This document shows positions 3,995-22,758 of a stretch of DNA of 64,000 nt, in pieces. Source of the DNA: Flavobacteriales bacterium (GTDB lineage: Bacteria; Bacteroidota; Bacteroidia; Flavobacteriales_F; PHOS-HE28). Every line of letters begins with the position of its first letter. Position 1 is the stretch's first letter. A program made the position numbers and the translations under genes. The stretch covers positions 186,001 to 250,000 of the forward strand of contig JAHDVX010000001.1 in the NCBI GenBank assembly GCA_023382455.1. The letters are read 5' to 3'. The notes under the pieces were generated by a model. That model made no database searches. It was not told the origin of the DNA and worked only from the letters and a program-made list of their open reading frames with translations.

Positions 3995-5185
3995 TCAGAT
4001 CACGCCCAGCTCCTTGCCCACCTTCCCGAAGGCGGCCAGCGCACGGTCGATCTGCTCGTCGGTGTGGGCGGCGCTCAACTGCACGCGGATGCGCGCGGTG
4101 TCCTTGGGCACCACGGGGAAGAAGAAGCCGATGACGTAGATGCCCTCGTCCAGCAACTTGTCGGCCATCACTTGGCTGAGCTTGGCATCGCCGAGCATCA
4201 CCGGCACGATGGCCGCACCGGCACCGCGGGTCTTGAAGCCCAAGGCCTCGATGCCGCGGCGGAAGCGGTCCACGTTGCGCTCCAGGCGGTCGCGCAGCGC
4301 CGTGGAGCTGCTGAGCACGTCGATCACCTTGATGGAGGCGCCCACAATGGCCGGTGTGAGTGAATTGCTGAAGAGGTAAGGCCGCGAGCGCTGCCGCAGC
4401 ATCTCGATGATCTCCTTGCGGCCCGTGGTGTAGCCGCCCATGGCGCCGCCGAGCGCCTTGCCCAGCGTGCCGGTGATGATGTCCACGCGGCCGGTGACCC
4501 CGCAGTGCTCCACGCTGCCGCGGCCGGTCTTCCCGATGAAGCCGGCGGCGTGGCATTCGTCCACCATCACCAGGGCCTCGTACTTGTCGGCCAGGTCGCA
4601 GATGCCCTTGAGGTCGGCAACGATGCCGTCCATGCTGAACACGCCGTCCGTGACGATGATGATGTTGTTGGCCCCGTCGGCCCGCGCCGTCTTCAGCTGC
4701 AGCTCCAGGTCGGCCATGTCGTTGTTCGCGTAGCGGTAGCGCATGGCCTTGCACAGGCGCACGCCGTCGATGATGCTGGCATGGTTCAGCGCATCACTGA
4801 TGATGGCGTCCTCCTGGCCGAACAGCGGCTCGAACACGCCGCCGTTCGCGTCGAAGCAGGCGGCGTAGAGAATGGTGTCCTCCGTGCCATGGAACACGGC
4901 AAGCTTGCGTTCCAGCTCCTTGTGGATGTCCTGTGTGCCGCAGATGAAACGCACGCTGCTCATGCCGTAGCCGTGCGAATCCAAGGTGTCGTGGGCCGCT
5001 TTCACCACTTCCGGGTCGGAACTGAGGCCGAGGTAGTTGTTCGCGCAGAAGTTCAGCACCTTGCGGCCGTTCACGGTGATCTCCGCCCCCTGCTCGCTGG
5101 TGATGATGCGTTCGCGCTTGAAGAGGCCGGCCTCCTCGATGGCGGCGAGCTCCTTGGCCAGGTGGTCCTTCAGTTTTCCGTACAT
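3995..5185 (-). CDS. kbl: glycine C-acetyltransferase (2-amino-3-ketobutyrate CoA ligase)
   Basis: This is a 396-residue PLP enzyme of the alpha-oxoamine synthase family. Visible landmarks are the PLP-binding lysine in [10 protein letters not shown] (Lys243), the cofactor Asp/His in [11 protein letters not shown] (Asp209, His212) and [11 protein letters not shown]. The N-terminus (MYGKLKDHL...) and the length match KBL, which cleaves 2-amino-3-ketobutyrate with CoA to glycine and acetyl-CoA in threonine degradation. Serine palmitoyltransferase and BioF are relatives, but the N-terminus and the short C-terminus fit KBL better. No threonine dehydrogenase gene is in the window. It is monocistronic, with a -7-like box TAATTTCG (5221 to 5214) 28 bases before the start. 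Confidence 0.9.
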
Positions 5186-19787: not shown

Positions 19788-21911
19788 ATGCGCAACCTCG
19801 TGGCCGCCCTTCTGCTGGCACTGGCCCAGCCCTTGCTCGCCACCCACATCCTGGGCGGGGAGATGTACTACACGTACCTGGGCAACGACAATTACCAGGT
19901 GACGTTGCGCCTATACCGGGACTGCGGCCCGGCCAACACCAACAACACGGCGCTGGACGCCATTGCCCACATCGGCATCTTCAACAGCGCGGGCGTGTGG
20001 ATCAACACGGTGGATTTCCAACTGCCCATGGAAACCACGATGCCCGTGGTGACGGACAACCCGTGCCTGACGGCCCCGCCCAGCATCTGCACCCGGCAAG
20101 GCATCTACACCGGCACCATCCACCTGCCATCGGGAACGGGCGGTTACACGCTGGCCTACCAGCGGTGCTGCCGGAGTCCCGCGGTGATCAACATCACCAG
20201 CACCCCGAACGCGCAGGGCATGACGTGCACCGTGTTCGTGCCCGACCCCTCTGTACACGGGCCGAACAGCTCGCCTGCATACGATGACGACCCGCCCATG
20301 GTGCTCTGCCTGGACCAAACGAGCGCGATCGAGCAGCTGGCCACCGACCCCGACGGCGATTCACTCGCCTACGCGTTGTGCCCGCCTTTCCAAGGAGGTG
20401 ACATCGTGAATGTTTCGCCCAACCCGCCCACGCCCCCGCCCTACACACCGATCATCTGGGCCCCGGGGTATTCCACGCAGGACCAGTTGAACTCCACGCC
20501 ACCCATGGTGTTCGGGAGCCAGGACGGGGTGCTGACCCTGCACCCCACGACCATCGGCAACTTCGCGGTGAGCATCTGCGTGAGCGAGTACCGCAACGGC
20601 GTGCTGCTGAGCACGGTGATCCGCGACTTCCGCTTCCTGGTGGTGGCGTGCTCACAGGCCATCACCGCTTCGCTGGCGGACCAGCAGGACCACTGCAACG
20701 GGCTGGAGGTGCAGATGACCAACCAGAGCACGGGCTCGAGCTTCTACCATTGGGATTTCGGCGTGGACGGCACGCTCGCGGACACTTCCAACGCGCAAGA
20801 TCCCTCGTTCACCTACCCGGCACCCGGCACCTACACCATCACACTGGTGGCCAACCCCGGTTGGCCTTGCGCAGATACCGCCACCAGCGTTTACACGGTG
20901 CATGACCCGGTGCATGTGGAGTTCACCGCACCGCCCAACCTCTGCTCGGACCAAATGCCGGTGACGCTCACGGCCACCGGGAACTTCGGCGGTTCGGCGG
21001 ACATCCAGTGGGATTTCGGCGGTGGCGTATCGCCCGATCCCACGGCCGCCACCACCACCGTGGGCTTCTCCACGCTCGGCGCGCATGCCGTCACGGTAAC
21101 GGCCACCGACAACGGTTGCACCGATTCCTACACGGACAGTGTGCGCATCTTCCCCGTGCCCACGGTGGCGTTCGCCACGGACACCAACGGCTGCGTGCCG
21201 TTCCAGCCGCAGTTCACCAACGGTTCATCGGCCTGGACACCGATGGCCTTCCATTGGGACCTGGGCGACGGCACCACCAGCAATGACAGCATACCGGTGC
21301 ACCTGTACACCACGGCCGGGGTGTACGATATCACGCTCACCGTATCCACCTCCAGCGGCTGCATCACCAGCCGATCGCTCACCCGGCCGAGCCTGGTTTC
21401 CGTATGGCCACGGCCGGTGGCGATGGCCACGGCCATACCGCCGGTCACAAGCGTGTTGTTCCCGGACATCACCTTCACCGACCATTCCGTGGATGCCGTG
21501 CAATGGGACTTCCTGGTGGAAGGCGTGCATTACGACACCACCAGCTTCACGCACAGCTTCAAGGATGCCGGCTGGTATAGTGCGCTGCAGACCGTGACCA
21601 GTGCCATGGGTTGCACGGACACGGCCACGGTACGGGTCTTCATCGGCGACCACCTGTTCTTTGCGCCAAGCGCCTTCTCGCCCAACGGGGACCAGCTCAA
21701 CGAGGTGTGGCGCCCCAGTGTGAAAGGTGCGCGTGCCTACCGCCTGGACATCTTTGACCGCTGGGGCCATCTGGTGTTCAGCACCACCGACCCGGCACAA
21801 GGCTGGGACGGCAAGGATGCGCCACCGGGCATGTACGCCTACAAGGCGTGGCTCACCGAATGGGGCCCGCTGGAGAAGGAGTACAACGGGAGCTTCGTGC
21901 TGATCCGCTGA
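19788..21911 (+). CDS. PKD-domain surface protein with T9SS type-B sorting domain
   Basis: A 707-residue secreted protein. Residues 1-20 form a signal peptide (MRNLVAALLLALAQPLLA). The N-terminal 300 residues are a Cys-containing beta region typical of Bacteroidota adhesins (HILGGEMYYTYLG). At least three PKD-like domains follow, marked by HWDFGVDG, QWDFGGG and HWDLGDGTTS. The C-terminus from about residue 625 (FFAPSAFSPNGDQLNEVW to the end) is a type-B (gliding-motility-type) C-terminal domain that directs export by the T9SS. It is likely anchored at or released from the cell surface. It sits between the addB- and addA-like genes but has no obvious functional link to them. Confidence 0.88.
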   Translation: MRNLVAALLLALAQPLLATHILGGEMYYTYLGNDNYQVTLRLYRDCGPANTNNTALDAIAHIGIFNSAGVWINTVDFQLPMETTMPVVTDNPCLTAPPSICTRQGIYTGTIHLPSGTGGYTLAYQRCCRSPAVINITSTPNAQGMTCTVFVPDPSVHGPNSSPAYDDDPPMVLCLDQTSAIEQLATDPDGDSLAYALCPPFQGGDIVNVSPNPPTPPPYTPIIWAPGYSTQDQLNSTPPMVFGSQDGVLTLHPTTIGNFAVSICVSEYRNGVLLSTVIRDFRFLVVACSQAITASLADQQDHCNGLEVQMTNQSTGSSFYHWDFGVDGTLADTSNAQDPSFTYPAPGTYTITLVANPGWPCADTATSVYTVHDPVHVEFTAPPNLCSDQMPVTLTATGNFGGSADIQWDFGGGVSPDPTAATTTVGFSTLGAHAVTVTATDNGCTDSYTDSVRIFPVPTVAFATDTNGCVPFQPQFTNGSSAWTPMAFHWDLGDGTTSNDSIPVHLYTTAGVYDITLTVSTSSGCITSRSLTRPSLVSVWPRPVAMATAIPPVTSVLFPDITFTDHSVDAVQWDFLVEGVHYDTTSFTHSFKDAGWYSALQTVTSAMGCTDTATVRVFIGDHLFFAPSAFSPNGDQLNEVWRPSVKGARAYRLDIFDRWGHLVFSTTDPAQGWDGKDAPPGMYAYKAWLTEWGPLEKEYNGSFVLIR

Positions 21912-22299
21912 GGTGGTTGTGATGCCCGCTCCTTGGAGAAGGGAGGCCCATGCCCCGGGGGCGTACGTGGTGCGGGTGGCTTCAAGAGCCTCAGCCACCG
22001 CGTACACCGGAAAGTTGGTGGTGTTGCCGTGAGGTGGGGGCACGGCACGAGGGTGGACCCTCGCGCCAGTGGAGGGGGGAATTAAGGTTTGCTTCGCGGC
22101 TAAATGAGCCGCTCGCTCTCGTCCGCGTTTGCAACGCGGACGGACTCCAATGGTCGTTTGCAACGACCCTGCCTGATTGCGTGGAGGTGAATGGTGCCGG
22201 TTAGCGCCCGCATTGCAAACGCGGGCGAGAAGAATAAATGCTTTGCGCTTATCCTTCGGCTCCGCTCAGGATAGCGCTTGCAATGACGACAATGACCGC
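21912..22299. repeat. 388-bp gene-free region with hairpin repeats
   Basis: There is no credible gene. The region holds a terminator-like hairpin (GGTGGCT 21975-21981 / AGCCACC 21993-21999), one copy of the GGCAC-palindrome family (22043-22072), three hairpins built on the core TTTGCAA (22121-22141, 22152-22168, 22206-22226) and the motif CCTTCGGCTCCGCTCAGG (22253-22270), also found inside the dnaE-type gene in reverse orientation. Confidence 0.75.
22121..22226. repeat. cluster of three REP-like hairpins with shared TTTGCAA core
   Basis: Hairpin 1 (22121-22141) has stem GTCCGCGTT / AACGCGGAC, loop TGC. Hairpin 2 (22152-22168) has stem GGTCGTT / AACGACC, loop TGC. Hairpin 3 (22206-22226) is in the opposite orientation, stem GCCCGC / GCGGGC around ATTGCAAAC. 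The stems differ in sequence but stay base-paired, and the core is constant. Confidence 0.75.
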
Positions 22300-22758
22300 T
22301 CAACCGTGCACCATGTCCACGTGCGGAATGCCGTCGAGCAGGTATTCCGCGCCCTGGGGGCTATAGCCGAGGCTGCGGTAGAAAGGGACGAGGTGCGCCT
22401 GTGCGGCCAGGGCCGAACGCGCATCACCGTATTGCCGGACCAAGGCTTGTTTCACGCGCTGCATCAACTGCCGGCCCAGGCCCGCGCCACGAAGGCCCGG
22501 GGCCACCACCACCCTTCCCACGTGGGGCAGTCCATCGGCACCAGGCGGCAGGATGCGCGCATACGCCACCACCGCACCGTCCGCGTGCCTGCCCACCACA
22601 TGCATGGCCGAGGCATCCCGGCCGTCCAGCTCGGGGTATGGGCATTGCTGCTCCACCACGAACACATCCACGCGCAACCGCAGGATGTCGTGGAGCAGCA
22701 ATGCGTCCAGCTCATCGAAGGCCATGATCGTCCAATCCATCTCCGGCGCCGCGCTCAT
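22300..22758 (-). CDS. elaA: GNAT acetyltransferase, ElaA family
   Basis: A 152-residue protein that follows the ElaA pattern: LRLRVDVFVVEQQCPYPELD, HVVGRHADGAVVAYARIL, the acetyl-CoA loop VAPGLRGAGLGRQL and C-terminal AQAHLVPFYRSLGY. Members are predicted N-acetyltransferases without a known substrate. The ATG overlaps the stop of the AddA-like gene (ATGA at 22758), so the two are co-transcribed. REP-like hairpins follow the gene. Confidence 0.85.
   Translation of the reverse strand: MSAAPEMDWTIMAFDELDALLLHDILRLRVDVFVVEQQCPYPELDGRDASAMHVVGRHADGAVVAYARILPPGADGLPHVGRVVVAPGLRGAGLGRQLMQRVKQALVRQYGDARSALAAQAHLVPFYRSLGYSPQGAEYLLDGIPHVDMVHG

Follow-up and report, generated by a model that had tools for sequence, protein, structure and literature searches.

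Hairpins in the gap between two convergent genes

The window analyzed here, a 64,000-nt stretch of DNA from a Flavobacteriales bacterium, contains a gap of 388 bp between two convergent genes, one for a PKD/CHU_C protein that carries a T9SS sorting domain, the other for a GNAT protein. The following features were located in the gap:

22046–22067, plus strand: REP-type hairpin CACGAGGGTGGACCCTCGCGCC from a different family, lying outside the element
22118–22229, no strand assigned: whole element, in the order CT, HP1, 9 nt, HP2, 36 nt, HP3, AG
22120–22142, plus strand: HP1, outer hairpin of the RE type, CGTCCGCGTT-TGC-AACGCGGACG, 10 perfect pairs, loop TGC
22143–22151, plus strand: spacer of 9 nt between HP1 and HP2, GACTCCAAT
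22152–22168, plus strand: HP2, inner hairpin of the RE type, GGTCGTT-TGC-AACGACC, 7 pairs, loop TGC
22205–22227, minus strand: HP3, outer hairpin in inverted orientation, from the opposite end (LE); the inner LE hairpin (GCGCGCTTGCAGCGCGC in relatives) is missing

The window element thus consists of a full RE (HP1, 9 nt, HP2) and of the outer LE hairpin only. The original prediction, made from the sequence of the window, had placed three hairpins at 22121–22226 and ascribed to them a constant TTTGCAA core, one inverted copy, and stems that differ completely but remain paired. The three hairpins were confirmed, and TTTGCAA is present in all of them, with HP3 carrying it on the minus strand, but this "core" is really a TGC three-base loop together with its two closing T-A pairs. 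The stem of HP2 is indeed unlike the other two, but those of HP1 and HP3 are near-identical variants of CGYCCGCR. Pairing is perfect in HP1 and HP2, but in HP3 the pair adjacent to the core is non-Watson–Crick (G-T as read on the minus strand and A-C as read on the plus), which explains why HP3 is missing from the list of perfect hairpins and why the strict test counted 0 perfect pairs for it.

The window was also compared with shuffled sequences. At two of the five TTTGCAA sites in the window there were 8 and 5 perfect flanking pairs, while sites with at least 4 flanking pairs occurred on average 0.005 times per shuffle in 200 dinucleotide shuffles (one shuffle had one). The predicted DNA fold of the 116-nt stretch had z values of −4.91 for the plus strand and −5.25 for the minus strand, with 0 of 200 shuffles as good, and in this fold HP3 was paired with HP1 and HP2 was enclosed. 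The covariance model R1, which was built without sequences from this genome, matched the window at 22118–22168 with a value of 4.4e-12.

The site of the element

The gap was compared with the syntenic gaps of the genus. Of the 45 genomes, 42 had a match, and the search yielded 30 loci. Both genes were present in 25 of them; five (L132, L133, L138, L142, and L145) were dropped because the partner gene was not found in the stretch. The data showed that in 19 of the 25 loci, the window's own locus being counted among the 25, the gap was at most 21 bp or the extended frames overlapped, while the other six gaps measured 75, 179, 192, 273, 388 (the window), and 781 bp. Hence, the gap in the window consists mostly of added material, although this comparison marks the whole 388 bp as extra and not the hairpin element alone. 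The separate hairpin at 22046–22067 belongs to a family with nine matches in this genome (control 0), which also flanks the tandem RAYT genes L042/L043; relative to CACGAGCGTGGACGCTCGCGCC of this genome, CACGAGGGTGGACCCTCGCGCC has a change in each arm, and the two changed positions pair with each other. The odd intergenic region of the window is explained, at least partly, as repeat debris. No tRNA was found in the 64-kb window. A further hairpin, TATCCTTCGGCTCCGCTCAGGATAG at 22250–22274, occurs once in this genome at up to 3 mismatches.

Copies in the genome of the window

TTTGCAA was mildly enriched in this genome, with 128 sites compared to 81 for the reversed pattern. Among 101 of these 128 sites that were read, only three formed hairpins with at least 5 perfect flanking pairs, two in the window and one at C23:13438, so that TTTGCAA hairpins as such were rejected as a genome-wide family. 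When CGYCCGCGTTTGCAACGCGGRCG was used as the pattern with up to 2 mismatches, seven matches were obtained at six places (control 0): two in the window, and others at C23:13432, C3:36172 (on both strands), C4:37510, and C28:5628. At C23 there is one outer hairpin together with a second, inverted one of which half has been lost. The C3 copy, which is CTCGCCCGCGTTTGAAACGCGGGCGAG, looks like the product of a central deletion between inverted hairpins, by analogy with the "double foot" idea outlined in PMC6006769. The C4 and C28 copies are doubtful, the latter perhaps with half an inner hairpin.

The R1 model gave four matches at three places (the window, C23, and C3). Further copies, few and non-autonomous, therefore exist in the genome, in line with the check proposed in the original prediction, but the family is small and decayed here. 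This copy number, like the maximum of 21 R1 matches among the 45 genus genomes, is below the level of more than 100 per genome that is given as usual for REPs in the available text of PMC2817692.

Copies in related genomes and the anatomy of the ends

R1 matches were found in 16 of the 45 genus genomes, this one included, and ranged from 0 to 21 per genome, with the highest numbers in G033 (21), G020 (17), G031 (15), and G042 (7). The outer-hairpin pattern was present in 14 of the 45 genomes, again including this one, while its control was at 0 in all 45. In a sample of the class, CCGCGTTTGCAACGCGG occurred in five of 395 genomes (control 0), three of the five lying outside the genus, and an exact scan of contig records returned 25 stretches, which were assigned to Flavobacteriales (17), Bacteroidetes MAGs (6), a Bacteroidales MAG (1), and Pedobacter terrae. 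In the relatives the inverted pairing of HP1 and HP3 recurs, the copies being the inverted ends of units of 108–216 bp. In G285 an array (L206, hairpins at 698–1290) is made up of six units in the same orientation, spaced at 109–116 bp, and every unit has both the outer hairpin and an inner one.

The ends share one layout, which is CT, the outer hairpin (23 nt), 9 nt, and the inner hairpin (17 nt), and they are of two types, with the inner hairpin being GGTCGTTTGCAACGACC in the RE type and GCGCGCTTGCAGCGCGC in the LE type. This layout was assessed on all 83 different outer hairpins of the loci examined, which were taken at up to 2 mismatches and counted without selection for an inner hairpin. 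An inner hairpin of either type was found within 30 nt of 43 of the 83, and in 37 of these 43 it was at exactly 9 nt. The other 40, which include HP3 and many hairpins from outside the genus, had neither type of inner hairpin, although several had other inner hairpins. In 71 of 83 cases the outer hairpin was immediately preceded by CT. CACT preceded the LE in 17 of 28 cases and the RE in 1 of 18, and this bias may reflect a preference in cleavage or in the choice of target. On the strand carrying TTTGCAA, GT[AG]G was directly 5′ of none of the 83 outer hairpins, and C[CT]AC was directly 3′ of two.

The pairing of the stems was analyzed in alignment A1, which contains 37 of the 40 ends from other genomes (L082 minus strand, L084 5455, and L097 1322 were left out by hand). 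In these ends, which had been chosen for similarity and pairing, 94.8% of 629 cells were paired compared to 87.1% after shuffling, and cells changed on both sides numbered 54 compared to 20.8 ± 3.9 (0 of 500 shuffles). When the structure was slid along the alignment, 52.3% of cells at most were paired. A weaker measure is the count of pairs that change on both sides, which was 6 compared to 4.3 ± 0.8 and was reached by 31 of 500 shuffles. As an example from the outer stem, pair 5–23 is C-G in 23 ends, T-A in 6, T-G in 5, and unpaired in 3. In the inner stem most two-sided changes reflect the two end types, so that few independent events are found there.

A transposase gene between the same hairpins

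In one relative (L077, in G042:C323) a RAYT reading frame of 183 amino acids lies between an LE, with the outer hairpin and GCGCGCTTGCAGCGCGC, and an RE downstream of the gene, with GGTCGTCGCAAACGACC and the outer hairpin. Its product matched the NCBIfam model NF047646, "REP-associated tyrosine transposase," with 94.2 bits (cut-off 80) and PF01797 with 32.9 bits (cut-off 23), but with 29 bits it did not reach the cut-off of 55 set for the IS200 model. Beside this autonomous element, at 4657–4993 of L077, there is a tandem partial copy with the C-terminal part of the RAYT (96% identical) and an RE of its own. A distant case from a Bacteroidales MAG (L084) has a RAYT preceded by CCTCCGCGTTTGAAACGCGGAGG (CCTCCGCG-TTTGAAA-CGCGGAGG) and followed by CCTCCGCGTTTGCAACGCGGAGG (CCTCCGCG-TTTGCAA-CGCGGAGG). 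With NF047646 its product scored 94.5 bits and that of L042 90.8 bits. The motifs are NHAH, FWED, and YLHMNP in L077 and SHVH, FWKD, and YIHQNP in L084, those of TnpAREP subclass 2.6 being NH[LIV]H, WQ, and YIH[QN]NP. In their phylum and in their hairpins lacking GT[AG]G the L077 and L084 elements fit subclass 2.6, or RAYT group 5, of which they are candidate members. Among solved structures the only match to the RAYT was 2fyx, with E = 0.26.

Four copies of 215–216 bp in two genomes (L086 of G033, and L053, L089, and L098 of G020) have the RAYT start region joined to an RE. In L089 this region reads MSSDRYSLAD, as in the full gene, and in L086 MSNGPSSLSDK, while L053 and L098 have an early stop. 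From their sequences these four elements are read as internal-deletion derivatives of the RAYT element. The loci examined covered 30 plus 6 match rows, with many of the remaining rows in the copy-rich G020, G033, and G042, and they showed a RAYT with the hairpin set both upstream and downstream in one genus genome only; an order-level RAYT search covered the same 45 genomes as the genus. At L115 (= L058) the hairpin set was upstream only and outside another REP.

The genome of the window itself has seven Y1_Tnp matches (L039–L045), and in none of these loci was R1 found up to E = 1, which suggests that the matching RAYT is absent from, or unassembled in, this genome of 51 contigs. The flanks of L041–L045 were read, and L039 and L040 were scanned with R1. 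The hairpins flanking the genome's own RAYTs were:

L042/L043: CGAGCG-type
L041: GGCAGTC- and GTGAAGTC-type
L044: CGGATC-type
L045: CTCGG-type, downstream only

The frames of L042/L043 (G000:C12:5124–5838) are 520 bp apart and identical in their first 154 residues, a recent tandem duplication. At L040 (G000:C2, ~250 kb) several GGCGGACC...GGTCCGCC palindromes lie inside a long open frame with a Y1_Tnp match. The expectation that a RAYT gene with flanking copies would be found was thus borne out in a relative but not beside the RAYT genes of the window's own genome.

Origin of the element and alternative explanations

Judging from these comparisons, the element is very probably a non-autonomous, presumably dead REP/BIME-like relic, belonging to an internal-deletion family of a RAYT element with double-hairpin ends. 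The copies elsewhere and the RAYT flanked by the same hairpins in L077 support in substance the REP/RAYT interpretation of the original prediction, whose description of the stems held only in part. In single-stranded DNA, as during replication, the hairpin ends would fold and could be bound by the HUH/tyrosine RAYT, largely through the TGC loop; the enzyme would cleave at the conserved CT adjoining the outer hairpin and then move or recombine the cut piece, and the matching RAYT has apparently been lost from the window's genome. The stems could drift together while the loop stays, because they would need only to pair. According to the available text of PMC8266576, TnpAREP acts on single-stranded hairpins, the E. 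coli enzyme has its cleavage site at a CT next to the REP, and in two of three TnpAREP systems tested particular bases of the loop were critical.

Stable hairpins in a convergent gap could also serve the PKD/CHU_C and GNAT genes as a two-way transcription terminator or an mRNA-stabilizing structure. This explanation is unlikely, since a promoter and terminator scan of 21800–22500 found neither a promoter nor a terminator-like site, the gap is at most 21 bp in 19 of the 25 syntenic loci (own included), and copies lie at other places and beside the transposase in L077. A secondary terminator-like role, as REPs can have, may still be served by the relic. The constancy of the core would suit sites at which a nucleoid protein or regulator of the host reads TTTGCAA independently of any mobility, and REPs are described as bound by host proteins in the part of PMC6006769 available. 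However, strong hairpins were formed at only 3 of the 101 TTTGCAA sites read, the stems covary, and the copies in relatives are the inverted ends of 108–216-bp units, four of which carry RAYT remnants, which together leave this explanation with very little probability. Stem covariation would suit a structured RNA, such as a riboswitch or a conserved small RNA, but that is the least probable explanation of all, given that no Rfam match was obtained in 21900–22500 up to E = 1, that the copy number varies from 0 to 21 across the genus genomes, and that the copies come as inverted pairs. Readings as an integron attC site or as CRISPR were set aside on anatomy alone.

Relation to known systems

The closest known systems include TnpAREP subclass 2.6 (RAYT group 5) of Bacteroidetes, for which manual inspection revealed "atypical secondary structures" (Quentin et al. 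2018, PMC6006769). The family of the window element shares with it the Bacteroidota RAYT, the flanking hairpins without GT[AG]G, and the copies elsewhere in the genome, and differs from the subclass, as described in the available text, by the possible loop rule set out below, the double-hairpin ends, and the 9-nt spacer; the present sequences may already be in Table S1 of that paper. With the REPINs and BIMEs of gamma-proteobacteria, as far as they are covered by the available parts of PMC3116915, PMC6006769, and PMC8266576, it has in common inverted REP pairs linked to a RAYT and the CT at the foot, but here there is no GTAG, the copy number is low, each end has two unlike hairpins, and the stems have a TGY triloop and are without the E. 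coli bulge. IS200/IS605 elements, as outlined in PMC6006769, likewise have a transposase of the HUH/Y1 family and hairpins at both, non-identical ends, while here the RAYT model was passed, the outer hairpins are inverted, and there are two hairpins per end. The CGTC-tagged REPs (Di Nocera et al. 2013, PMC3733652) are also short palindromes, and HP1 starts with CGTC; however, the tag as presented there is unpaired and flanks no transposase gene, while here CGTC is within the stem and varies to CGCC. In a literature search none of the titles listed tied a TTTGCAA palindromic repeat to REP or RAYT, and no paper was found on RAYT/REP sequences in Flavobacteri. The present element, with its autonomous relative, deletion derivatives, and relics, offers a worked case for a RAYT group whose hairpins are called "atypical" in what is available of PMC6006769, the single paper that the search turned up on TnpAREP in Bacteroidetes.

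A possible loop rule across RAYT loci

As a relic, the element itself belongs to a known kind; the bolder lead, and the one that deserves to be followed, is the possible loop rule. The hairpins flanking RAYT genes were collected from 56 distinct loci across the class, obtained from searches with one RAYT (67 were given, of which 10 had no match at E 1e-20 and one was a duplicate). Hairpins with at least 6 pairs and a 3-base loop were counted up to 200 bp from the gene, with regions more than 600 bp away as the control. There were 124 such hairpins near the RAYT genes, or 5.6 per kb compared to 0.43 per kb in the control, and 87 of the 124 had TGC, TGT, or a complement as the loop, compared to 12 of 40 control hairpins. 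The orientation differed between the two sides, with 33 TGY and 8 RCA loops upstream and 11 TGY and 35 RCA loops downstream, a pattern that was noticed in the same data in which it was counted. When the RAYTs were grouped at 60% identity into 31 clusters, which are not fully independent, the upstream side was TGY in 16 clusters and RCA in 2 (13 tied or with none), and the downstream side RCA in 13 and TGY in 2 (16 tied or with none). A TGY/RCA loop was found in 21 of the 31 clusters, and 8 were without any triloop hairpin.

These data could point to a code among Bacteroidota RAYTs, in which each has its own drifting stem and most read a TGY triloop that is inverted between one end and the other, while in the clade studied each end would have two hairpins with a fixed spacing; we regard this as a tentative proposal, with a chance somewhat short of even. 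If it is true, the enzyme class would be addressed through the loop and the individual family through the stem, REP families could be predicted from RAYT sequences, and the turnover of stems around a constant core would be explained. The orientation rule can be put to the test, as it says what these single-strand transposases would read and how their stems can change with mobility retained. Beside the TGY loop 23 different 5-bp stems were counted. The exact core TTTG[CTA]AA was present in 37 of the 124 flank hairpins compared to 6 of 40 in the control, and because it was found at only 15 of the 56 loci, the heptamer is not the rule and the loop is the better candidate.
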